A DNA stretch of 64,000 bases from Stigmatella aurantiaca. Lineage in GTDB: Bacteria; Myxococcota; Myxococcia; Myxococcales; Myxococcaceae. Under the pieces are notes generated by a model. The model searched no databases. It was not told where the DNA came from and saw only the letters and a program-made list of their open reading frames with translations. The stretch spans positions 186,001 to 250,000 of the forward strand of contig NZ_FOAP01000007.1 of NCBI RefSeq assembly GCF_900109545.1, written 5' to 3'. A program made the translations under genes and the position numbers. Below are positions 19,150 through 32,507 of this stretch, piece by piece; positions within the stretch are counted from its first letter, which is position 1, and the number at the start of each line of letters is the position of its first letter.

Positions 19150-22100
19150 ATGCCGCGTACTGCTGGCTCGCCCGAGCCACAATGTTTGACCGACGAGCTT
19201 CTCGCGGAACTGATTGATGGCCGCCTTCCTCCGGAGGAGCTCTCCCGCGTGCATCACCACGCGGAGGCCTGCGCCGACTGCCATGCCTTGCTGGTCACGG
19301 TGGTTCGCGGAGGCGTGCAACCCCAGGAGCTTGACGAGCCCCCGCTGGAGGGCCCTAAGACCCTGGAACCGGAGCCCTTCTCCGAACTCCCGGAAAAAGC
19401 CTGGGTCCCTCCGGACACGTTTGATGAATTCCGCCTCGTGCAGCTGCTCGGCCGGGGGGCGATGGGCGTCGTCTACCTCGCGCACGACACCTCCCTGGAC
19501 AGGCAAGTCGCGGTCAAGTTCATCGCCTCGCATCAGCCCAACGCCCGGGCCCTCGAACACTTTCGAATCGAGGTGCGTGCCATCGCGCGGGTACAGCATC
19601 CCAACGTCGTCACCGCCTTTCGCGTGGGAGACGTAGCGGGCCGGCCCTACCTCGTCTCCGAGTACCTGGCCGGACAGAGTCTGGCGGACATGCCGCTGCC
19701 CATGCCCTGGCGGCGGGCGCGGGTGATGGGATTGGGCATGGCCCGGGGCCTCGCGGCGGCCCATCGCCAGGGCGTGCTGCACCGCGACCTCAAGCCCGCC
19801 AATGTGTTTCTTACCGCCGAAGGCGAGGTGAAGCTGCTCGACTTTGGTCTGGCCGAACTCTTCGATGGAAAACCGGGGAGCGGAACGCCTGGCACCCGCA
19901 CCCTGGCGGGCACCCCGAGGTACATGGCGCCCGAGCTCTTCCAGGGCCAGCTTGCAACCCCCCAGAGTGATCTCTATTCATTGGGTGTCGTCCTCTACGA
20001 ACTGTGTACGGGAGCGCTCCCCTCCCCACCTCGCGCGCTTCGCCCGAAGGGCAACGGCCCGCCCGAACCCCTTCCCGCGGACGTGCCTGCCTCGGCTGGA
20101 GCGCCCTCGCTCCCAGATCGGGTGCCGGGCATCGACCTTGACTTCGCCGCGCTCATCGAGCGCTGTCTCCACCTGGACCCATCCGAGCGCTTCGCCTCCG
20201 CGGAAGCGCTTCGTGTCGAATTGGAGCGGCTCGGGCCCTTCCAGGAAACGGACAGTCTCCCGGACGCCAGCCCCTACCAGGGCCTGGCCTCGTTTGAAGC
20301 GGAGCACCGCGCGCTCTTCTTTGGCCGCGACACCGATATTCGCGCCGTGCTCGACCGGCTGCGCCGGCACCCCTTGGTCCTCATCGCGGGCGACTCGGGC
20401 GTGGGCAAATCCTCCCTGTGCCGCGCCGGCATCCTGCCCCGCGTCACCCAAGGGGCGCTCGATGACTTCCTGGACTTTCGTCCCCTGACGTTGACGCCGG
20501 GCCGTCAGCCCCTCGCGGTACTTGCCGCCATGCTGGCCCCCGTCCTTCACCGGACCGAGGCCGAGCTCATGGACCGGTTCACCGGAACACCGGGCTGGCT
20601 CGGCGCCGCGCTCCGGGCCCTCGCCCCAGACGGCCATGGGGTGCTCGTGTTCGTCGATCAGGCAGAAGAACTCGTGACCCTGAGCGAGCCGGCGCAGGCG
20701 CTCCGCTTCGCGGAGCTGCTCAACGAACTGGCCCTGCCCTCGCCCGGCGTCCGGGTGCTGCTCACGGTCCGCGGCGACTTTCTCACCCGGCTGGGTGCGT
20801 TGCCCGGCATGGATTCGGCCATTGAGCGCTCGCTCTACCTGCTTCAGCGCCTCAAGCCCGCAGGGATCCGCGAGGCCATCGTCGGCCCCGCGCGCAGCCG
20901 AGGCGTGAGCTTCGAATCCGAAGCGCTCCTGCAGACCCTGATTGACCAGACCTCTCAGGGCGCGGGCAGCCTGCCCCTGCTCCAGTTCACGCTGACCGAG
21001 CTGTGGGAGCGCCGCGATACCGCGCGGGCGTGCATCACCCAGGCTTCCCTGGAGGCCATGGGGGGCGTGGTGGGCGCGCTCTCCCGGCATGCCGACCACG
21101 TGCTCTCCCGGCTCAAGCCCTCGGAGCAGCACGACGTCCGCCGCCTCCTGAGCCGCCTCATCACACCTGAAGGCACGCGCGGCGAGCAAAGCGAGGCCGA
21201 ACTCACGGAAGGATCCCCGGAAGCCCGCGCCACGCTCCAGGTTCTCATCGAGGGCCGGTTGCTCCACGCGCGCGCCGCGGACGGTGGGACCCACTACGAA
21301 ATCGCACACGAGGCACTGATTTCCAGTTGGGGAACCCTGCGCCGCTGGCTCAACGAAGACGCCGCGCAACGGGTGCTCCGGCAGCGCCTGGAGCTGGCCA
21401 GCGCTGAGTGGGAGCGTGCCCAGCGTTCCAGCGACCTGCTGTGGCGTTCGCGCCAACTCAAGGAGTCCCAGGCCATCGACTTGCTCAGCTTGAGAGACCG
21501 TGAGCGCGACTTCCTCCAGGCGTCCCGGAAAGCCGCGCGCCGCCACCGCAACAGCCTCATCTTGGGCACGGCGCTGCTGGTCTTGGTTCTGGCAGGGCTC
21601 TACGCAGTGCCTCGTCTGCTAGAGCACAGGACCAAGCTACATGCTTTCCAGACACTGCTGGCAGCCGCCGCAGTGGAGCTCCAGCAGGGGAAGACCTTCG
21701 CTCAACGGGCTCTCACCCGCCGCGAGGAAGCCATCTCCCTGTTCGACGCCCCGTCCTCGATGAAGCACCTGGCGGAGGACAAGTGGGAACAGGTCCTGGA
21801 GGATTCCAAGCAAGCCCGTCTCCATCTCGCGGCGTCAGAGCAGAAGCTCGAAGATGCGCTTGAGCTTTTCTACCGGCATCCTGAGGCCCACAAGCGGCTC
21901 ATCGAGACGACACACGAACGGCTCGTTCTAGCCGAGCGCTTCCATGAGCGGGACGAACGCAGCCGACTCACCGAGAAGTACAAAAGGCTGACGTCCAGTG
22001 ACCCACTCCTGAAAGGAGCACTCGAAGTTCCCGCGAAACTGGAAATCGAAACCATTCCCTCCGGAGCCTTCGTGGAGTTGGCCTTCGCCGGGAGTCCTTC

Positions 22101-23127
22101 GGAAACGCCCCGCCGTGCCCCTGCCGACCCCAGCGAGTACCGCCCCCTCAACAGAACACCCGTTTCACCGTTGCCCCTGCAAGCCGGCACCTATCACCTC
22201 CGCATTACGGGAAAAGGCAGCCCCCCTGTGTACGTGCCGCTCTGGCTCGAAAGGGAAGAGCACGCACGCATTCACCTGGTGCTCCCCACCGCTGTTCCCC
22301 AAGGCTATGCCTACGTTCCACCTGGCTGCTTTTTCATGGGGAGCGCCGACATCGAGGATCTGCGGTCTTTCGTGGAAAGTCCTCCCATCTACCGGAAGTG
22401 CCTGTCCCACGGCTTCTTCATTGGAAGAACCGAAGTGACGTTCGGAGAGTGGGTCGAATATCTGGAGGCCCAACGCCCCAACGCCCCAGAGCGCCAATTC
22501 CTCGCGAAGTCACGGTCCAATGAGGGAAGCACCCTATCCCTGCGGCAATTGCCCGATGGCCAATGGCAATTCTCGTTTCAACTGTTTGGTGGAAAAGCCC
22601 TGACTGCCCGAGGCAACGGCAAGATCCAGTATCCCGGCCGGGAAAAGAATCAGGCGCAGAGCTGGCGCCATTTGCCTCTCGCAGGCGTCGCCCCCGAGGA
22701 ACTCCAGGGTTATCTCGCCTGGCTGGACCGCTCGGGGCGTGTGAAAGGCGCGCGGCTGTGCACCGAGTTGGAATGGACCCGTGCGGCGCGCGGGGCCGAT
22801 GACCGCCGGTTCCCTCACGGACACAAACTCAAGCCCACGGAGGCCAACATCGACAGGACCTATGGCCGCAAGCGTGATGCCTACGGACCGGACGAAGCTG
22901 GCTTACACGCGGCTTCCGAGAGCCCATGGGGCGTGCGCGACATGGCAGGCAATGTCTTCGAGATCACCCAGATCGAAGTGGGGGAGGCCCGTGAATTCCT
23001 GCTGAAAGGTGGCGCCTGGTACTACCCAGAGGCCTCTGCGTTGATCTTCACGCGCGAAGCCATCCCAGCCGATCACTGGGATACACGGGCCGGTGTGCGT
23101 GTCTGTGCTTCCCTGCCAGCCCCCTGA
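19150..23127 (+). CDS. Ser/Thr protein kinase with zinc-finger, STAND NTPase and FGE-sulfatase domains
   Basis: A 1325-residue multidomain protein. Residues 12-45 resemble a zf-HC2 anti-sigma zinc finger (HHAEACADC). The kinase spans about 95-360, with 'LLGRGAMGVVYLA', VAVKFI, 'HRDLKPAN' (211-218), DFG (231-233) and 'GTPRYMAPEL', so it looks active. A nSTAND1-type NTPase follows, with Walker A 'GDSGVGKSS' (414-422). One membrane helix lies at about 802-822, then a helical stretch and a PEGA-like segment. A formylglycine-generating-enzyme-like domain (about 1055-1325: 'YVPPGCFFMG', 'RTEVTFGEWVEYL', 'GVRDMAGNVFE') would be outside the membrane. Whether that domain is catalytic is unknown; it may be a ligand sensor. 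Confidence 0.9.
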   Translation: MPRTAGSPEPQCLTDELLAELIDGRLPPEELSRVHHHAEACADCHALLVTVVRGGVQPQELDEPPLEGPKTLEPEPFSELPEKAWVPPDTFDEFRLVQLLGRGAMGVVYLAHDTSLDRQVAVKFIASHQPNARALEHFRIEVRAIARVQHPNVVTAFRVGDVAGRPYLVSEYLAGQSLADMPLPMPWRRARVMGLGMARGLAAAHRQGVLHRDLKPANVFLTAEGEVKLLDFGLAELFDGKPGSGTPGTRTLAGTPRYMAPELFQGQLATPQSDLYSLGVVLYELCTGALPSPPRALRPKGNGPPEPLPADVPASAGAPSLPDRVPGIDLDFAALIERCLHLDPSERFASAEALRVELERLGPFQETDSLPDASPYQGLASFEAEHRALFFGRDTDIRAVLDRLRRHPLVLIAGDSGVGKSSLCRAGILPRVTQGALDDFLDFRPLTLTPGRQPLAVLAAMLAPVLHRTEAELMDRFTGTPGWLGAALRALAPDGHGVLVFVDQAEELVTLSEPAQALRFAELLNELALPSPGVRVLLTVRGDFLTRLGALPGMDSAIERSLYLLQRLKPAGIREAIVGPARSRGVSFESEALLQTLIDQTSQGAGSLPLLQFTLTELWERRDTARACITQASLEAMGGVVGALSRHADHVLSRLKPSEQHDVRRLLSRLITPEGTRGEQSEAELTEGSPEARATLQVLIEGRLLHARAADGGTHYEIAHEALISSWGTLRRWLNEDAAQRVLRQRLELASAEWERAQRSSDLLWRSRQLKESQAIDLLSLRDRERDFLQASRKAARRHRNSLILGTALLVLVLAGLYAVPRLLEHRTKLHAFQTLLAAAAVELQQGKTFAQRALTRREEAISLFDAPSSMKHLAEDKWEQVLEDSKQARLHLAASEQKLEDALELFYRHPEAHKRLIETTHERLVLAERFHERDERSRLTEKYKRLTSSDPLLKGALEVPAKLEIETIPSGAFVELAFAGSPSETPRRAPADPSEYRPLNRTPVSPLPLQAGTYHLRITGKGSPPVYVPLWLEREEHARIHLVLPTAVPQGYAYVPPGCFFMGSADIEDLRSFVESPPIYRKCLSHGFFIGRTEVTFGEWVEYLEAQRPNAPERQFLAKSRSNEGSTLSLRQLPDGQWQFSFQLFGGKALTARGNGKIQYPGREKNQAQSWRHLPLAGVAPEELQGYLAWLDRSGRVKGARLCTELEWTRAARGADDRRFPHGHKLKPTEANIDRTYGRKRDAYGPDEAGLHAASESPWGVRDMAGNVFEITQIEVGEAREFLLKGGAWYYPEASALIFTREAIPADHWDTRAGVRVCASLPAP

Positions 23128-24305: not shown

Positions 24306-24342
24306 GAGCAGTCCCTCAGGGCATCAGCCGGAGGGACTGCTC
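24306..24342. terminator. Perfect 12-bp inverted repeat at the argR 3' end
   Basis: GAGCAGTCCCTC (24306-24317) pairs perfectly with GAGGGACTGCTC (24331-24342) around a 13-nt loop. The repeat overlaps the last codons and stop of argR and lies 12 bp after the ADYC gene. Its position suggests a bidirectional terminator, although no T-run follows on either strand. Confidence 0.6.
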
Positions 24343-24729
24343 AAGCTGCTCCCGCACCTCTCCCAGCCGCGAGGGGTGCTTCACCGCGATGAACACCGTG
24401 TCGTCCCCCGCGATGGTGCCGGCCACCCCTTCCATGCCCACCGCGCGGTCCACCATCACCCCGACAATCTGCGCGTAGCCCGGCGCCGTCTTGAGCACGA
24501 GCATGTTCGGCGGCGCCTCCATCACCGTGGCTCGCACCGGGGGCGCAGGAGCCCGCTCCACGCGTTGGTAGCGTCCATTCACCTTCTGGACGGACAGGCG
24601 CTTGAGGTGCCGGGAGAGCGTGGACTGGCTCGGCGCCTGTCCCTCCCCCTCCAGCAACTGCTGAAGCACCGCTTGGTCCGTGATCTCGTGGGCCTCCAGC
24701 AACCGGAGGATCGCTTCGTCCAGATCCAT
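24316..24729 (-). CDS. argR: Arginine repressor ArgR
   Basis: A 137-residue ArgR. The N-terminal winged helix contains 'SQSTLSRHLKRLSVQKVNGRY', typical of the DNA-binding helix. The C-terminal oligomerisation and arginine-binding domain contains 'LVLKTAPGYAQIVGVMVDR' and 'GVAGTIAGDDTVFIAV', with the GTIAGDDT signature. ATG 24729 is chosen over an upstream ATG at 24765 because it starts at the folded domain. It is divergent from the arginine operon and is the obvious candidate to repress it through the operator-like sites in the gap. Confidence 0.95.
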   Translation of the reverse strand: MDLDEAILRLLEAHEITDQAVLQQLLEGEGQAPSQSTLSRHLKRLSVQKVNGRYQRVERAPAPPVRATVMEAPPNMLVLKTAPGYAQIVGVMVDRAVGMEGVAGTIAGDDTVFIAVKHPSRLGEVREQLEQSLRLMP

Positions 24730-24750
24730 GCACGGGACGATGCATCCACC

Positions 24751-24867
24751 TGAATATGCATGCAAGGGCCTCGTGGAACTCCCCCTGAATATCCCTGGAA
24801 ATTAATCTCTTGCGCTGCGCGTCGTGGTGAATACTATGCGCCCCTCCTGCGGGCAGGCGCATATTCA
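24751..24867. promoter_or_regulatory. Candidate ArgR operator cluster
   Basis: The argR/argF' gap holds four ARG-box-like half sites: TGAAT at 24751, 24786 and 24828, and ATTCA at 24863-24867. The outer two are part of a longer inverted pair, TGAATATGC (24751-24759) and GCATATTCA (24859-24867). The right site is embedded in an 18-bp near-palindrome (24861-24878). The ARG box consensus in other bacteria is two facing TGAAT/ATTCA halves. The region is also AT-rich compared with its surroundings. Confidence 0.6.
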
Positions 24868-24921
24868 TGCATGCATATGCAGGCTCATCCACCGCCCCGA
24901 CGGGCACTGCGAGGAGTCACG

Positions 24922-25926
24922 ATGAAGCACCTGACCCACATCCGGGATCTCGGCCCTGAAGGCGTCGAGACGATTCTGGCGAAGGCCGCCGCCTGGAAGG
25001 GCAAGCCCGCCGAGCCGCTGTTCCTGGGCCGCATCCTGGGCATGGTGTTCTTCAACCCCTCGCTGCGCACGCGCGCCTCGTTCGAGTCGGTGATGCTGCG
25101 CGGCAGCGGCAACGCCATCGTCCTGGACGTGGGCAACGGCGTGTGGAAGCTGGAGGACCGCCCCGGGGCCATCATGAATCAGGACCGCGCCGAGCACATC
25201 AAGGAGGCCGCGCCCGTGCTGTCGCGCTTCGTGGACATGCTCGGGGTGCGCACCTTCTCGGCCGGTGGGGACGACGAGCAGGACGAGGAGGATCCGGTCA
25301 TCTCCGCCTTCCGCCGCCACGTCACCGTGCCCCTGGTGAGCATGGAGTCCGCGCGGGAGCACCCCTGCCAGGGGCTCGCGGACGTGCTCACGCTGCGCGA
25401 GAACTTCGGCTCCACGAAGAAGCTGCCGGTGACGCTCACCTGGGCGCCCCACATCAAGCCGCTGCCCAAGGCGGTGCCCAACTCCTTCCTGCTCACCGCC
25501 GCGGCGGCCGGCTGCGAGGTGCGCGTGGCGCATCCTCCCGGCTTCGAGCTGCACCCGGCGGTGCGCGCCGAGGCGGAGGCCTACGCCAAGGCCACGGGCG
25601 GCAGCGTCACCTACACGCATGACCAGAACGAGGCCCTGGCGGGCAGCCGCGCCGTCTACGCCAAGTCCTGGGGCCCGGCCACGCGCTCGGCGCACACCGC
25701 CGGGGACGTGTCCGCGCTGCTGGCCTCCCACGCGGACTGGATGCCCACGCGCCGCACCCTGTCGCGCGCCGCCGCGGACGCGCTGTTCCTCCACTGCCTT
25801 CCCGTGCGCCGCAACGTCGAGGTCGCCGACGAGGTGCTGGACCACCCGTCCAGCCGCGTCATCGACGAGGCGGAGAACCGCTTCCACGTCCAGCGCTCCA
25901 TCCTCTCCTGGCTGCTGTCGGCCTGA
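24922..25926 (+). CDS. argF': N-acyl-ornithine carbamoyltransferase (acetyl- or succinyl-ornithine type)
   Basis: A 334-residue transcarbamylase resembling the Xanthomonas acetylornithine enzyme rather than classical OTCase. Carbamoyl-phosphate residues are in 'FFNPSLRTRASFESVM' (43-58) and 'HPCQGLAD' (147-154). Type-specific features are Trp75 in 'GVWKLED', 'LTWAPHIKPLPKAVPNS', 'YAKSWG' (246-251), 'LHCLPVRRNV' (290-299) and 'IDEAENRFHVQ'. By eye, the residue matching Xanthomonas Glu92, which decides acetyl versus succinyl specificity, is Ala90, and the residue matching carboxylated Lys302 is Glu300. It is the first gene of the arginine operon, with argE downstream to remove the acyl group from acyl-citrulline. 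Confidence 0.9.
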   Translation: MKHLTHIRDLGPEGVETILAKAAAWKGKPAEPLFLGRILGMVFFNPSLRTRASFESVMLRGSGNAIVLDVGNGVWKLEDRPGAIMNQDRAEHIKEAAPVLSRFVDMLGVRTFSAGGDDEQDEEDPVISAFRRHVTVPLVSMESAREHPCQGLADVLTLRENFGSTKKLPVTLTWAPHIKPLPKAVPNSFLLTAAAAGCEVRVAHPPGFELHPAVRAEAEAYAKATGGSVTYTHDQNEALAGSRAVYAKSWGPATRSAHTAGDVSALLASHADWMPTRRTLSRAAADALFLHCLPVRRNVEVADEVLDHPSSRVIDEAENRFHVQRSILSWLLSA

Positions 25927-25944: not shown

Positions 25945-26757
25945 ATGCCCTTCTCTCCCGATCCCTACTCCGCGCTGCGCTCCGCCGCCCGCTACGTCCG
26001 GCAGTTCCGCCGGAAGACCTTCGTGGTGCTGCTCGACGGCCCCGTCATCGGGGATCCGAAGCTGCGCCGGGCGGCCTGCGAGCAGATTGGTCTCCTGTGG
26101 GCCTTCTCCATCCAGCCCGTGGTGGTGCACAGCTCGAGCCCCGAGCTGGACACCCCGTTCGACACGGGCTCGCCCCTCACCGGCCGGCTGCGCACGGACC
26201 TGCTCACGGACCTTCAGGCCGCGGGCGTGCCGTGCGTGGGCCTGAGCGGCGTGGACGCGGGCCTGCTCAAGGCCCGGCCGGTGAATGCCGGCACGAGCGG
26301 TGACATCGAGTCGGTGGACACGCGCCTGCTCCAGCACCTGCGCTCGGGCGAGTACGTGCCCGTGGTGGCGCCCCTCGCGGGCGACCCGACGGGCGCCGTG
26401 CACAACGCCAGCGCGGACACGGTGGCGGCCCTGCTCGCGGTGGCGCTGGGCGCCGAGAAGCTCTTCTTCCTGCTCACCACGCCGGGCCTGCTGCGCGACG
26501 CGTCCAACCCCAACTCCATCATCCCCCTGGCCTCGCTGCAGGAGCTGGTCGGGCTGGAGAAGGAAGGCCAGCTCTCTGGCAGCCTCAAGCCCAAGGCCCA
26601 CGCCATCCGTCACGCCCTGGAGGGCGGCGTCGGCAGCGTGCACCTGGTGAGCGGCACCCTGCCGGATGCGCTCCTGGAGGAGGTCTTCACCAACGAGGGC
26701 AGCGGCACGATGGTGGTCCGCGAGCCTCCCGCGCGTGGCGCCGGAGGGTCCACGTGA
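25945..26757 (+). CDS. argB: Divergent acetylglutamate kinase-like protein
   Basis: A 270-residue amino-acid-kinase-fold protein of the NAGK/NAGS type. It begins with a NAGS-like 'YVRQFRRKTFVVLLDG' segment and ends 'VHLVSGTLPDALLEEVFTN', typical of ArgB. 'VVAPLAGD', 'HNASADTVAALLA' and 'GSLKPKAHA' keep the Asn/Asp and the C-terminal Lys of the active site. However, the N-terminal 'VVKIGG' Lys is absent ('VVLLDG'), the glycine loop HGGGP reads HSSSP, and the 'GLRVTD' segment is largely deleted. It may therefore be a weak kinase, a regulatory subunit or a re-purposed enzyme. There is an 18-bp gap after argF'. Confidence 0.8.
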   Translation: MPFSPDPYSALRSAARYVRQFRRKTFVVLLDGPVIGDPKLRRAACEQIGLLWAFSIQPVVVHSSSPELDTPFDTGSPLTGRLRTDLLTDLQAAGVPCVGLSGVDAGLLKARPVNAGTSGDIESVDTRLLQHLRSGEYVPVVAPLAGDPTGAVHNASADTVAALLAVALGAEKLFFLLTTPGLLRDASNPNSIIPLASLQELVGLEKEGQLSGSLKPKAHAIRHALEGGVGSVHLVSGTLPDALLEEVFTNEGSGTMVVREPPARGAGGST

Positions 26758-27821
26758 CGCCAGCCGCCCTGCTCGAAGCCCTCGTGGCCACCCCCAGCGT
26801 CTCGGGAAACGAGGCGGCGATCGCGGACAAGGTGGCCTCGTGGGCCGAGGGCTGGGGTGCGCGCGTGCAGCGCCAGGGCCACAACGTGTGGTTCTCCGTG
26901 GGCCAGGGCCCGCGGCGGCTGCTCGTCAACTCGCACCTGGACACCGTGCCCCCGTGCAGCGGGTGGACGCTGGAGCCCCTGCAGCCGCTGTGGCGCGAGG
27001 GGCGCCTCTATGGCCTGGGGAGCAATGACGCCAAGGGCTGCGTGACGGCGATGCTGCTCGCGGCCCGGGAGCTGCTGGCCGCTCCCCAGTCCCTGGACGG
27101 CAAGGGCGAGGTGGTCTTCGCGTTCACCGCCGAGGAGGAGACCGGGGGCAAGGGCCTGGGCCCGCTGCTGGGCGAGCTGGGGCCGCTGGATGCCGCCGTG
27201 GTGGGCGAGCCCACGGGGCTGAAGCCCTGCACGGCCCAGCGCGGCATGCTGCTCCTGCGCTGCGTGGCCCACGGCACCTCGGGGCACGTGGCGCACGCGC
27301 ACACCACCCAGACGGAGAACGCCATCCACGTGGCGGCGCGGGACATCGCCGCCCTGGCGGAGCTGCGCTTCCTGCCCCACCCGCTGCTGGGCGAGGCCCG
27401 CGCGCAAGTCACGCAGATTCAAGGCGGCCTGGCGCGCAACCAGGTCCCCGACCGGTGCGAGTTCTTCGTGGACCTGCGCACCACACCAGGCATGGACCAT
27501 GCAGCCATCGCCCTGCAGATCGGCCGGACGCTGAAGAGCGAGGTGACAGTGCACTCCGCGCGCTACCTGCCGAAGGGGACCGCGCCGGGCGAACCCATCG
27601 TCCGCGCGGCCCTGGCGGCCTCGGGCGAGGCGCCCGTGGGCTCCAGCACCACCTCCGACTGGGCGTTCCTGGGCGACCTGCCCGCCGTGAAGGTGGGCCC
27701 GGGCGACACGCTGCGCTCCCACCGCCCCGATGAACACCTCGCCCTGGTGGAGCTGGAGGCGGGGGTTTCCTTCTACCAGAAGCTCATCCGCGGCTACTTC
27801 GAGGAGGTGGCAGGTGGCTGA
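26754..27821 (+). CDS. argE: M20 family acyl-amino-acid deacylase (ArgE type)
   Basis: A 355-residue M20 metallopeptidase-family deacylase. Dinuclear zinc ligands are visible: 'NSHLDTVPP' (His), 'LGSNDAKG' (bridging Asp), 'FTAEEETGG' (general base Glu plus ligand), 'VVGEPTG' and a final His in 'RSHRPDEH'. In an operon with an acyl-ornithine carbamoyltransferase, its likely job is hydrolysis of N-acetyl- or N-succinyl-citrulline to citrulline. It starts with GTG overlapping the argB stop by 4 nt (GTGA) and overlaps argH by 8 nt. Confidence 0.9.
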   Translation: MTPAALLEALVATPSVSGNEAAIADKVASWAEGWGARVQRQGHNVWFSVGQGPRRLLVNSHLDTVPPCSGWTLEPLQPLWREGRLYGLGSNDAKGCVTAMLLAARELLAAPQSLDGKGEVVFAFTAEEETGGKGLGPLLGELGPLDAAVVGEPTGLKPCTAQRGMLLLRCVAHGTSGHVAHAHTTQTENAIHVAARDIAALAELRFLPHPLLGEARAQVTQIQGGLARNQVPDRCEFFVDLRTTPGMDHAAIALQIGRTLKSEVTVHSARYLPKGTAPGEPIVRAALAASGEAPVGSSTTSDWAFLGDLPAVKVGPGDTLRSHRPDEHLALVELEAGVSFYQKLIRGYFEEVAGG

Positions 27822-29166
27822 AGAGACGCTGTGGGCCAAGGGCCTGGCGCTGGACACCATCATCCATGGCTTCACCGTCGGGGATGACCCGCAGGTGGAC
27901 CTGGCGCTCGCCCCTCACGACGCGCTCGGCAGCGCCGCCCATGCCCGGATGCTGGCGCGCGTGGGGCTCCTGTCCGAGGCGGACATGCGCGCCCTGGTGA
28001 CGGCCCTGCGCGCGCTCCACGACGAGGCGCGGGTGGGCGCGTTCACCATCCGCCCGGAGCAGGAGGACGGACACACCGCCCTGGAGGCCGCCCTCGTCGA
28101 GCGCGTGGGCGAGCCCGGCCGCCGCATTCACCTGGGCCGCTCGCGCAATGATCAAGTGCAGCTCGCCCTGCGGCTGCTCCTGCGCGAGGAGGTGCTGGTG
28201 CTCGGCGCGCGCACGGCGGAGCTGGCCGGTGCGTTCCTGGACTTCGCCCAGGCGCACGCGGACAAGCCGATGCCCGGCTACACGCACATGCGGCGGGCCA
28301 TGCCCAGCACGTTCGGGCTGTGGGGCGCCGCCTTCGCCGAGGCGCTGCTGGAGGAGCTGGAGGCCCTGAAGGGGCTGTGGGCGCGCGTGGACCGCTGCCC
28401 CCTGGGCGCCGCCGCGGGCTTCGGCGTGCCGCTGCCCATCGACCGGGAGTATGTCGCCTCGCTGCTCGGTTTCTCCCGCGTGCAACGCAGCCCCATCGAT
28501 GTCCAGAACAGCCGAGGGCGTCTCGAGACGGCGGCGCTCTCGTGGGGGTGCTCCATCGCGGGAGGCCTGGAGAAGTGGCTGTGGGACCTGGCGCTCTTCA
28601 CCACCGAGGAGTTTGGCTTCCTGGCGCTGCCGGACGCCTTCACCACCGGCTCGTCCATCATGCCGCAGAAGAAGAACCCGGACGTGGTGGAGTTGGCGCG
28701 GGGCCGGTGCCGGGAGCTGCGCGGCATGGCCCGTCAGGTGGAGGAGATCGCCAGCGGCCTGCCCTCCAGCTACCACCGCGACTTCCAGCTGCTCAAGCGC
28801 CCCACCCTCACGGCCCTCACCTCCCTGCGCGAGCTGCTGGAGGTCTCCACGCGCCTGGTGCCCGCGCTGCAGATCCGCGCCGAGGCGGCGGCCCGGGCGT
28901 GCGACGACACGCTGTACGCGGCCCACCATGCCTTCACGCTCGCCGGGCGCGGCCTGCCGTTCCGGGATGCCTACCGCGAGGTGGCCCAGCAGCTCGCCGG
29001 CGGCACCTTCCAACCGGACCGGGCCGCGCTGACCGCCACCCACCTGGGCGGCGCCGGCAACCTGGGCCTGGAGCAGGCCCGCGCCGAGCTGGACGCCTCG
29101 CGTGCCTGGCTCACCGACACCCACCGTGCGCTCGCCGGTTGTGCCGAGCGCATCTGGCACCCCTGA
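27814..29166 (+). CDS. argH: Argininosuccinate lyase
   Basis: A 450-residue member of the fumarase/ASL superfamily that splits argininosuccinate into arginine and fumarate. It contains 'HLGRSRNDQVQLALRL', 'PGYTHMRRAMPSTFG' and the signature 'GSSIMPQKKNPD' with the catalytic Ser loop. The start is taken as GTG 27814, inside the end of argE (8-nt overlap), because family similarity begins soon after; no ATG is available nearby. argG follows after 22 bp. Confidence 0.95.
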   Translation: MAEETLWAKGLALDTIIHGFTVGDDPQVDLALAPHDALGSAAHARMLARVGLLSEADMRALVTALRALHDEARVGAFTIRPEQEDGHTALEAALVERVGEPGRRIHLGRSRNDQVQLALRLLLREEVLVLGARTAELAGAFLDFAQAHADKPMPGYTHMRRAMPSTFGLWGAAFAEALLEELEALKGLWARVDRCPLGAAAGFGVPLPIDREYVASLLGFSRVQRSPIDVQNSRGRLETAALSWGCSIAGGLEKWLWDLALFTTEEFGFLALPDAFTTGSSIMPQKKNPDVVELARGRCRELRGMARQVEEIASGLPSSYHRDFQLLKRPTLTALTSLRELLEVSTRLVPALQIRAEAAARACDDTLYAAHHAFTLAGRGLPFRDAYREVAQQLAGGTFQPDRAALTATHLGGAGNLGLEQARAELDASRAWLTDTHRALAGCAERIWHP

Positions 29167-29188: not shown

Positions 29189-30379
29189 ATGAGCAAGAAA
29201 CCCGTGGTGCTGGCCTTCTCCGGCGGTCTGGACACCTCCTTCTGCGTCGTCTACCTGCGCGAGCAGGGCCACGCCGTCACCACCGTCACCGTGGACACCG
29301 GCGGCTTCTCGGCCGACGCCCTCAAGCGCATGCCCGAGCAGTCGGCGCGCCTGGGCGCCGTCGCCCACCACACGGTGGATGGCCGCGCGCTGCTCTTCGA
29401 CAGCTACCTGCGCCACCTGCTCGCCGGCAACGTGCTGCGCGGCCAGGCCTACCCCCTGAGCGTCTCCGCCGAGCGCGTCTGCCAGGCCACCGAGGTGGTG
29501 CGCATGGCGCGTCAGGTGGGCGGCCAGGCCCTGGCCCACGGCTCCACCGGCGCCGGCAATGATCAGATCCGCTTCGATGTGGCCTTCCGCGCCCTGGCGC
29601 CGGACCTGGACCTCATCACCCCCATCCGCGACCTGTCCCTGAGCCGGGCCCAGGAGATGACCTACCTGGCCGAGCGCGGCTTCTCCATGCCCGCCAAGAC
29701 GGCGGCCTACTCCGTCAACGAGGGCATGTGGGGCACCTCCGTGGGCGGCAAGGAGACGCACGACTCCTGGAGCGCGCTGCCGGAGGCCGCCTACCCGGGC
29801 GGCGTGGTGCCCAGCGACCTGGCGCCCCGCACGCTCGTGGTGGGCTTCGACAAGGGCCGGCCGGTGTCGCTGGACGGCAAGGCGCTGTCCCCGGTGGAGA
29901 TCATCGCCGAGCTGAACACCGTGGGGCAGCCCTACGGCGTGGGGCGCGGGGTGCATCTGGGCGACACCATCCTGGGCATCAAGGGCCGCGTGGGCTTCGA
30001 GGCGCCCGCGGCGGTGATGCTCATCACCGCGCACCGGGAGCTGGAGAAGCTGGTGCTCTCCGGCAAGCAGCTCTTCTGGAAGGAGACGCTGGGCAACCTC
30101 TACGGCACGCTGCTGCACGAGGGGCACTTCTTCGATCCGCTGGCGCGTGACTTGGAGGCCTTCCTCACCTCCTCGCAGGAGCGCGTCACGGGTGACGTGC
30201 GGCTGACGCTCCAGCCGCGCGCGCTGTTGGTGGAAGGCGTGCGCTCGCCCTACTCGCTCATGGACGCCAAGGTGGCCAGCTACGGCGAGGCCAACCACAT
30301 GTGGACGGGCGCCGAAGCCGCGGGCTTCGCCAAGGTGTATGGCGTGGCACAAACCCTGGCCCTCAAGGTGAAGTCATGA
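29189..30379 (+). CDS. argG: Argininosuccinate synthase
   Basis: A 396-residue ATP-dependent ligase that joins citrulline and aspartate. The PP-loop 'LAFSGGLDTSFCVVYL' lies at the N-terminus. Other conserved segments are 'AHGSTGAGNDQIRFDVAF', 'TPIRDLSLSR', 'YSVNEGMWG' and 'GIKGRVGFEAPAA'. Length is normal. ATG 29189 is chosen; the frame runs upstream into argH. Its stop overlaps the start of the P-loop gene by 4 nt. Confidence 0.96.
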   Translation: MSKKPVVLAFSGGLDTSFCVVYLREQGHAVTTVTVDTGGFSADALKRMPEQSARLGAVAHHTVDGRALLFDSYLRHLLAGNVLRGQAYPLSVSAERVCQATEVVRMARQVGGQALAHGSTGAGNDQIRFDVAFRALAPDLDLITPIRDLSLSRAQEMTYLAERGFSMPAKTAAYSVNEGMWGTSVGGKETHDSWSALPEAAYPGGVVPSDLAPRTLVVGFDKGRPVSLDGKALSPVEIIAELNTVGQPYGVGRGVHLGDTILGIKGRVGFEAPAAVMLITAHRELEKLVLSGKQLFWKETLGNLYGTLLHEGHFFDPLARDLEAFLTSSQERVTGDVRLTLQPRALLVEGVRSPYSLMDAKVASYGEANHMWTGAEAAGFAKVYGVAQTLALKVKS

Positions 30380-31440
30380 AGGTACACGTCGACAAGGTGG
30401 GCAGCGTCACCCGCAACCTGCGGCTGGGCCGGACCGTGAGCCTCACCACCGATATCCAGGCGGTGGAGGGCGCGGTCATCGCCGCGCGCATCCACGGCGA
30501 GAAGTCCGTCTACAACCAGCTCGAGGACGTGCACGGGCGGCTGGTGACGCTGCACGGCGGGGACATCGTCGTCGGGGCGCTCGGCCACCGCAACGCGCTG
30601 CACGGCTACGAGGGCGTAGTGCCCGAGAAGGTGGAGGCCGGCCAGCGGCTGCACGTGCTCAACATGGGCGGCGTCATCGGCCAGTGCACCTCGCACAACC
30701 CCGGCGTGGGCACCCCGTTCGAGGCGGAGGTGCTCGGCCAGGTGCTCGTGTTCCCCGAGTTCCAGTCCCGCACGGGCCAGCCGGCCCACATCCGCGCCGG
30801 CGCACTCCGCGGCTCGGAGAAGCCGGTGACGGTCCCGGTGGTGTACGTGGTGGGCACCTGCATGAACGCGGGCAAGACGTACGCCGCGTGCGCGCTGGTG
30901 CGCCGGCTCTCCCAGGCGGGCTACCGCGTGGGCGGCGCCAAGCTCACGGGCGTGTCGCTCATGCGCGACACGCTGAGCATGCGCGATTCGGGCGCCGAGG
31001 TGGTGATGGACTTCACCGACGCGGGCACCGTGTGCACCAGCCCCCGGACCGCTTCCCAGGTCTCCCGCATCATCCTGTCCGAGCTGGCGGCCGCCGAGGT
31101 GGACGTCATCGTCGCGGAGACGGGCGACGGCATCATGGGCGAGTACGGCGTGCAGTCGATCCTCGCCGACCCGGGCCTGCGCGGCCTGGGCAGCTCCTTC
31201 ATGCTCTGCGCCAATGATCCGGTGGGGGCCTCCGGCGGCGTGCGTCACCTGAAGGAGACGTACGGCATCACCGTGGACGTGGTGGCCGGTCCCGCCACCG
31301 ACAACGGGGTGGGCATCCGCTTCGTCGAGCGCGAAGTGGGCGTGCCCGCCCGCAATGCCCGCGCGGATGCGGCGGGCCTGGGCAATCTCATCCTGGAGCG
31401 GCTCACGCCCCAGCTTGGTACCGGTCGGAGGAGCGCATGA
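30376..31440 (+). CDS. P-loop NTPase of unknown function inside the arginine operon
   Basis: A 354-residue protein coupled by ATGA overlaps to argG before it and argC after it. The N-terminal 155 residues form a beta-rich domain without a recognised motif ('LVTLHGGDIVVGALGHRNAL', 'LNMGGVIGQCTSHNPG'). A P-loop follows at 160-168 (GTCMNAGKT), then 'GYRVGGAKLTGVSLMRD' and 'VDVIVAETGDGIMGEYG', the layout of SIMIBI-class proteins such as MobB, BioD and CobQ, and more loosely DUF1611 proteins. The strict coupling argues for a role in arginine synthesis, for example in the N-acylation of glutamate that the operon otherwise lacks, but that is a guess. Confidence 0.75.
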   Translation: MKVHVDKVGSVTRNLRLGRTVSLTTDIQAVEGAVIAARIHGEKSVYNQLEDVHGRLVTLHGGDIVVGALGHRNALHGYEGVVPEKVEAGQRLHVLNMGGVIGQCTSHNPGVGTPFEAEVLGQVLVFPEFQSRTGQPAHIRAGALRGSEKPVTVPVVYVVGTCMNAGKTYAACALVRRLSQAGYRVGGAKLTGVSLMRDTLSMRDSGAEVVMDFTDAGTVCTSPRTASQVSRIILSELAAAEVDVIVAETGDGIMGEYGVQSILADPGLRGLGSSFMLCANDPVGASGGVRHLKETYGITVDVVAGPATDNGVGIRFVEREVGVPARNARADAAGLGNLILERLTPQLGTGRRSA

Positions 31441-32507
31441 GTCGGGTTCACGCCTATATCCTGGGGGCATCGGGTTTCGGGGGTGGCGAGTTGCTGCGGC
31501 TGCTGGCCGGGCACCCGTCCGTCGCGGGCATCCGTGCGGTGTCCAAGCCACACGCGGACACCCTGCTCTGGAAGGTGCACCCGCACCTGCGCAGCCTCAT
31601 GGACGGCCACTTCGAGGCCGAGCCGGACTGGAAGTGGCTCACGGACTCGCCGCAGCCGGTGGTGTTCTCCTGCCTGGAGGACGAGGAGCTGGCGCGTCAG
31701 CTCCCCGCCCTGGAGAAGAAGTGGGCCGAGCTGGGGCTCGCCGACCGGATGATCCTCATCGATCTGTCGCCGGACTTCCGGTTGGATCACGCGGGGCGCT
31801 ACGCCGCCACGCATGGCCGCCCCCACCCCACGCCGGAGCTGCTGGAGCGCTTCGTCTACGGGCTCACCGAGTGGCGCCGCGACAAGCTCAAGGGGGCCCG
31901 CCGCATCTCCAACCCGGGGTGCTTCGCCACCGCCGTGCAGCTCGCGCTCTTGCCGGTGGCCGCCACGCCGGGCCTGGGCCTCATCGCCGCCACGGCCGTC
32001 ACGGGCTCCTCGGGCTCCGGGGCGATCCCCGTCGATGTGACGCACCACCCCACGCGCGCCCATGACTTCCGCGCCTACCGGCCGCTGGAGCACCAGCAGG
32101 AGGCGGAGATCGACGTGATGCTCGTGGCGCACAAGGCCTCGCGCCACCGGCTCACCTTCGTGCCGCACTCGGCGCCGCTGGTGCGCGGCATCTTCGCCAC
32201 CGTGCAGTTCGAGTGGCCGGAGACCGCCGGCGGCGTGAGCACCGCGTCCCTCACCACGCAGTACCGCAACTACTACACCGGCTCGCCGTTCATCCGGGTG
32301 GTGGAGGGCAGCCCGCGCCTGGCCTCCGTGGTGGGCAGCAACTTCGTCGACATCGCGGTGGCCACGCGGGGCCGCACCGTGGCGGCGATGGTGGCGCTGG
32401 ACAACCTGGTGAAGGGCATGGCGGGCCAGGCGGTGCAGAACCTCAACGTGGCCCTGGGGCTGCCCGAGGACACCGCCCTGCGGCAAGCCGCGTGCTACCC
32501 CTGCTGA
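31437..32507 (+). CDS. argC: N-acetyl-gamma-glutamyl-phosphate reductase
   Basis: A 356-residue NADP-dependent reductase. The nucleotide-binding loop is 'ILGASGFGGGELLRLL', the catalytic Cys is C162 in 'ISNPGCFATAVQLALLP', and 'TGSSGSGAIPVDVTHHP' and 'HSAPLVRGIFATVQ' are conserved. The presence of argC implies that an acyl-glutamyl phosphate is made in the cell, by the divergent ArgB here or another kinase. It is the last gene of the operon, starting by ATGA overlap. Confidence 0.94.
   Translation: MSRVHAYILGASGFGGGELLRLLAGHPSVAGIRAVSKPHADTLLWKVHPHLRSLMDGHFEAEPDWKWLTDSPQPVVFSCLEDEELARQLPALEKKWAELGLADRMILIDLSPDFRLDHAGRYAATHGRPHPTPELLERFVYGLTEWRRDKLKGARRISNPGCFATAVQLALLPVAATPGLGLIAATAVTGSSGSGAIPVDVTHHPTRAHDFRAYRPLEHQQEAEIDVMLVAHKASRHRLTFVPHSAPLVRGIFATVQFEWPETAGGVSTASLTTQYRNYYTGSPFIRVVEGSPRLASVVGSNFVDIAVATRGRTVAAMVALDNLVKGMAGQAVQNLNVALGLPEDTALRQAACYPC

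Follow-up and report, generated by a model that had tools for sequence, protein, structure and literature searches.

A Stigmatella aurantiaca arginine operon joins a carbamoyltransferase of succinyl-type signature to a P-loop protein that is a candidate N-acylglutamate synthase

Carbamoyltransferases acting on acylated ornithine have been described as an acetyl type, the AOTCase of Xanthomonas, and a succinyl type, the SOTCase of Bacteroides fragilis. Glu92, Asn185 and Lys302 (Xanthomonas numbering) separate the first from the second, in which the corresponding positions hold A/S/P/V/Q, P and V/I/E (review by Shi, Allewell and Tuchman 2015, PMC4581275). S, P, A or V at the Glu92 position is likewise reported to bring about a preference for the succinylated substrate (GapMind, PMC7311316). 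Kinetics are taken here from later papers and from PDB titles. By those titles, crystal structures exist of the Xanthomonas mutants E92A, with a ligand listed as N-succinyl-nor... (likely N-succinyl-norvaline; 3l02), and K302E, with PALAO, an acetyl bisubstrate analogue (3m5c). For the first step of the pathway, BT3761 is a probable N-succinylglutamate synthase related to Cabys_1732 (GapMind, PMC7311316), whose gene opens an argAGCBEH locus.

We analysed 64,000 nucleotides of Stigmatella aurantiaca DNA (the window), in which a carbamoyltransferase gene, here argF', is followed by argB, an M20 deacylase gene, argH, argG, a P-loop protein gene and argC, with argR divergent upstream (Table 1). 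Four-base overlaps join argB to the M20 gene, argG to the P-loop gene and the P-loop gene to argC; the P-loop gene, 4.5 kb downstream of argF', is translationally coupled between its two neighbours. ARG-box-like matches number eight in the window against 0.38 expected, six of them at 24751-24881 (both strands counted). The M20 enzyme is presumed to be an acyl-citrulline deacylase, and by eye argH appears to start at a GTG (27814). An ADYC-domain protein (PF20032; 23286-24293) adjoins argR, and a large ORF at 19150-23127 looks by eye like a serine/threonine protein kinase whose C-terminal part is similar to formylglycine-generating enzymes. The genome has one further PF00185 match besides argF', presumably the aspartate enzyme. 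No copies of argF' were found in viral contigs.

Table 1. Features of the arginine locus (positions within the window)
Feature	Position	Strand	Evidence
argR-type arginine repressor, divergent	24316..24765	-	PF02863 64.5 bits, PF01316 32.4 bits, both over cut-off
Three ARG-box-like palindromes (24751-24764, 24858-24871, 24868-24881)	24751..24881	.	Between argR and argF'
argF', acyl-ornithine carbamoyltransferase, SOTCase signature	24922..25926	+	NF003384, fold, A/P/E
Codon GCC, Ala90 (Xanthomonas Glu92 position)	25189..25191	+	Alignment
Pro182 codon (Xanthomonas Asn185 position), third discriminator	25465..25467	+	Multiple alignment
Codon GAG, Glu300 (Xanthomonas Lys302 position)	25819..25821	+	Alignment
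argB, N-acylglutamate kinase	25945..26757	+	PF00696 alone, without NAT domain
M20 deacylase (ArgE/DapE type)	26754..27821	+	PF01546 91.7 bits; TIGR01892 139.7 bits, below cut-off
argH, argininosuccinate lyase	27814..29166	+	TIGR00838 290 bits, over cut-off
argG, argininosuccinate synthase	29189..30379	+	TIGR00032 317 bits, over cut-off
DUF1611/DgcN-like P-loop protein, candidate N-acyl(succinyl)-L-glutamate synthase	30376..31440	+	Synteny, co-occurrence, fold
argC, N-acyl-gamma-glutamyl-phosphate reductase	31437..32507	+	TIGR01850 292 bits, over cut-off

The argF' product (334 aa) scores 425 bits against NCBIfam NF003384 (cut-off 288), a family named "N-acetylornithine carbamoyltransferase." The name is uninformative on substrate because a Flavobacterium relative of B. 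fragilis SOTCase falls in the same family (325 bits). W75 in an extended 80s loop, a proline-rich loop (HIKPLPKAVPNS) and a full-length AOTCase-like fold place the product among the knotted transcarbamylases; its AlphaFold monomer model (pLDDT 94.6) fits Xanthomonas AOTCase structures over ~330 residues (Z 46, rmsd 1.5-1.6) and reaches Z 39.8 with B. fragilis SOTCase. A preliminary description of this DNA had listed the motifs W75, KSWG, HCLPVRRN and IDEAENR, all of which are present in the translated ORF, and had aligned Ala90 with Glu92 and Glu300 with Lys302. Both pairings recur in a full-length phmmer alignment to X. campestris AOTCase from the PDB, gap-free nearby, and in the multiple alignment. 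On these alignments and the superposition, chance or misalignment was rejected as their source, and the same A/P/E (positions 92/185/302) in every Myxococcaceae-type orthologue read likewise argues against chance.

The preliminary description had seen two substrate-defining changes and missed a third: in the multiple alignment Pro182 pairs with Asn185, and Lys179 with Lys182, of the Xanthomonas enzyme. The product thus has none of the three AOTCase residues and an SOTCase residue at all three discriminating positions. Because A/P/E lies within the published lists throughout, this is a known signature, and the argF' product is, judged by its residues, one more unremarkable member of a class on record, the succinyl-type ornithine carbamoyltransferases. 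The coordinated substitutions are real and bear on substrate choice; the third subclass drawn from them is unsupported and unneeded. E92A and K302E both already stand in the published record. Among the succinyl-binding residues of B. fragilis SOTCase (H176, R178, R278), His177 and Arg296 are kept and Arg178 is replaced by Lys179, a Lys shared by Flavobacterium L128, whose carbamoyltransferase is closely related to that of B. fragilis.

To place this signature within its family, we tabulated positions 92/182/185/298/302 (Xanthomonas numbering) across 129 carbamoyltransferases. Glu92 occurs in only seven, six reading E/K/N/R/K and one E/R/N/R/K, all with Asn185 and Lys302; on the tree, a quick one with many open forks, these true AOTCases (E/N/K) group apart as a single clade. 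With five sequences (L043-L047) excluded, position 92 in the remainder is A, T, P, V, S, Q or I, position 185 is almost always Pro, with rare Ala or Ser, and position 302 is I, V, E or A. For B. fragilis SOTCase the alignment gives P/R/P/R/I. The window enzyme belongs to a 36-row clade that reads mostly A/P/E and draws on Myxococcia, Holophagae, Gammaproteobacteria, Vicinamibacteria and Verrucomicrobiota. It is thus mainly the one AOTCase clade that makes the three positions covary. The occurrence of I, V, A and E at 302 across the family also means that Glu there need not stand one-for-one for the carboxylated lysine, and the idea of Glu300 as a unique, genetically encoded stand-in for the modified residue was rejected.

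Two further groups were observed in the survey. Three myxococcotal sequences (L034, L035 and L036) fall between the two types with V/(A or P)/K: Glu92 is lost and Lys302 kept, and the P-loop gene is present. The excluded L043-L047 (Myxococcota genomes G003-G005, G007 and G009) form a separate clade with Ser at the His180 and Lys182 positions, Asp at Arg298 and no Trp77. No arg genes were found near their loci, and two of them (L044, L045) adjoin adenosine-deaminase-like and MFS transporter genes, so the substrate may be a catabolic one linked to purines.

In the Stigmatella genome, the first step of arginine synthesis has no gene among the known kinds searched. ArgJ (PF01960) is absent, with control genomes positive; the NAT domain of NAGS (PF04768) has no match; and a BT3761-type GNAT has no homologue in this genome or in 195 Myxococcota, with a control genome (G195) positive and the Stigmatella genome negative a second time. 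ArgJ, NAGS-kinase and the BT3761-type GNAT were accordingly each dropped as the first enzyme here. In each of the three AOTCase-type operons examined there is a NAGS-kinase gene whose product includes a NAT domain; the window argB lacks that domain.

The P-loop gene occupies a conserved place in related operons. Most operons with the SOTCase signature carry it flanked by argG and argC, or else immediately 5' of argC, an arrangement that spans at least five phyla (Myxococcota, Acidobacteriota, Gammaproteobacteria, Planctomycetota and Bacteroidota), and it was present in 25 of the 28 genomes tested among carriers of related operons. Bacteroidota contain both alternatives: the Flavobacterium operon L128 reads GNAT-argG-argC without the P-loop gene, and a Bacteroidetes operon (L129) reads argG-P-loop-argC without the GNAT. 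Operon place, family and phylum suggest that the L128 GNAT is a BT3761 orthologue.

The two genes replace each other almost one for one. Across 277 Bacteroidota genomes, 135 have a knotted carbamoyltransferase, 116 the GNAT and 20 the P-loop protein; here the carbamoyltransferase cut (E<=1e-50) was set afterwards, inside a gap from 6e-51 to 3e-47, and weaker P-loop matches (E>=9e-19) were set aside. Every one of the 135 carries a first-step candidate—the P-loop gene in 19, the GNAT in 115 and both in one (G252, the sole such genome)—and none of the other 142 has either. In Myxococcota (n=195), the P-loop gene is found in 59 genomes, ArgJ in 90 and a NAGS-type NAT in 10, and none of the 59 carries ArgJ or the NAGS-type NAT; a remote P-loop relative (31%), located outside an arg operon in an ArgJ genome (G016), is not counted among them. 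Fisher p-values for these co-occurrences ignore the relatedness of the genomes. The carbamoyltransferase tree, read with its open forks, contains at least four exchanges between P-loop gene and GNAT, which makes a single inherited event an unlikely source of the pattern. Neither first-step gene was found in two Blastocatellia MAGs that have the carbamoyltransferase, perhaps owing to incompleteness.

One genome (G194; L186 and L187) has the P-loop gene together with argC, argB and argR, and the only carbamoyltransferase found there looks unknotted, like a plain OTCase. A first step by the P-loop protein combined with the ornithine route is possible in that genome, and retention of the gene without a knotted carbamoyltransferase is what a first-step role for the protein would predict.

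The predicted fold of the P-loop protein (pLDDT 95.4) resembles solved DUF1611 proteins and DgcN. Realigned to PDB chains, the model matches 2g0t (Z 16.6), 2obn (DUF1611; Z 15.6) and the N-acetyltransferase DgcN (7xrj; Z 14.8, model residues 55-345); CTP synthases and dethiobiotin synthetases rank among them and match the P-loop domain alone. DUF1611 entries surfaced only in this realignment, none being among the 50 Foldseek matches listed. The window protein reaches no Pfam or NCBIfam family at their cut-offs, scoring 23.0 bits against DUF1611 (PF07755), just below the 25-bit cut-off, and 31 of 60 members of its family match PF07755 at E<=0.01. Invariant residues of the family include a Walker motif around G160-T168 and D198, D204, E248, D251, D281 and D309. 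DgcN is part of a pathway from D-glutamate to L-glutamate. No DgcA neighbour could be tied to the weak DUF1611-like matches in Bacteroidota; the genes beside them encode an ABC transporter, a protein of the asparaginase family and other products. A literature search limited to freely accessible journals found nothing on DUF1611 in arginine synthesis.

Fold alone does not fix the reaction, as BioD, CTP synthase and SRP GTPases fit the P-loop domain about equally well. DgcN is expected to use acyl-CoA; BioD and CTP synthase activate their substrates with ATP. Sequence and fold would be compatible with either acyl-CoA transfer or ATP-dependent ligation of the free acid. On the simplest reading, the window protein is a DgcN relative that acylates L-glutamate; it very probably supplies the first intermediate of arginine synthesis and is best read as a candidate non-orthologous N-acyl-, probably N-succinyl-, L-glutamate synthase. 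We think it probable that this is a new N-succinyl-L-glutamate synthase opening the arginine pathway of myxobacteria, many Acidobacteriota, Planctomycetota and some Bacteroidota; it may work as an ATP-dependent ligase instead of by acyl-CoA transfer. Succinyl is taken as the acyl group on account of the SOTCase signature in the carbamoyltransferase further along the pathway.

We hold with good confidence the explanation that unites these observations: an operon working through acylated intermediates, with the argF' product as SOTCase and the P-loop protein at the glutamate acylation step. The P-loop protein would acylate L-glutamate, most likely with a succinyl group; ArgB and ArgC would convert the acylglutamate to the semialdehyde, and an aminotransferase encoded elsewhere would yield the acyl-ornithine. 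The argF' product would then form acyl-citrulline, its loss of Glu92 and Asn185 giving the succinyl arm room and Glu300 taking the place of carboxylated Lys302. The M20 enzyme would remove the acyl group, and ArgG and ArgH would complete arginine. Weighing against the succinyl part, B. fragilis SOTCase grips succinyl with Arg178, which is Lys179 here, though Flavobacterium L128 also has Lys.

An acetyl route, in which the argF' product takes N-acetylornithine despite its residues and the P-loop protein is a DgcN-like N-acetylglutamate synthase, is improbable. The name of DgcN, titled an N-acetyltransferase, would favour acetyl, as would the NCBIfam family name and the binding of an acetyl bisubstrate analogue by K302E. 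Against this, crystals of the Xanthomonas E92A mutant contained a succinyl ligand, Ala at the Glu92 position is reported to confer succinyl preference (PMC7311316), and the family name extends to the Flavobacterium close relative of B. fragilis SOTCase.

That the P-loop protein is a regulator or chaperone-like NTPase, the first step falling to an unlisted GNAT, is also unlikely. Proteins with a P-loop fold of this class often serve as NTPases in helper roles, and the GNAT searches of the 9.4-Mb genome covered the BT3761 type. Yet for a helper one would expect neither a near one-for-one exchange with a GNAT N-acylglutamate synthase across 135 of 135 genomes nor absence of the gene from the NAGS-kinase operons and ArgJ genomes examined. 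Very unlikely is the third subclass, in which the argF' product would use another acylated ornithine, neither acetyl nor succinyl, with Glu300 as a built-in replacement for the carboxylated lysine: A/P/E with Lys179 does dominate its own well supported clade (36 rows), and the acyl group is assigned from residues, but all three residues lie inside the published SOTCase lists (PMC4581275), and A/P/V and A/P/I operons of the same type swap their first gene with the Bacteroides-type succinyl-pathway GNAT.

If the preferred reading—an SOTCase operon started by the P-loop protein—is true, that protein fills the missing first arginine step in several phyla, brings to the N-acylglutamate synthases a fold new among them and sets relatives of a domain family that still goes by the name DUF1611 in a functional context. 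The argF' product also exposes a misleading database name in NF003384. Myxococcus xanthus has been assigned a linear acetylornithine-deacetylase route (assignment cited in PMC4258820), and our reading of argF' and the P-loop gene bears on that assignment.

Among known systems, X. campestris AOTCase (3kzk) is close in fold and sequence (38% identity over 331 residues) and shares the carbamoyl-phosphate and carboxylate-binding residues; unlike it, the window enzyme lacks Glu92, Asn185 and Lys302, and its operon lacks the bifunctional NAGS-kinase. B. fragilis SOTCase (1js1, 2fg6, 2g7m) belongs to the same knotted-transcarbamylase family and shares the arginine operon context, a residue other than Glu at 92, Pro at 185 and a residue other than Lys at 302; it differs in reading P/R/P/I, against A/K/P/E here, with Arg178 in place of Lys179. 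The BT3761/Cabys_1732 synthase, encoded at the start of related arginine operons, would perform the same step as the P-loop protein, with a GNAT rather than a P-loop fold and no homologue found in the Stigmatella genome. Of P-loop domains, that of dethiobiotin synthetase BioD (1dae, 3of5) comes nearest in both sequence profile and Foldseek comparisons (Z ~15), but BioD is single-domain and belongs to the biotin pathway. DgcN/DUF1611 proteins (7xrj, 2g0t, 2obn) share both the P-loop domain and the N-terminal part (Z 14.8-16.6) at 11-16% identity; the window gene, by contrast, lies in an arginine operon rather than the D-glutamate DgcN-DgcA pathway, and its product is expected to take L-glutamate.
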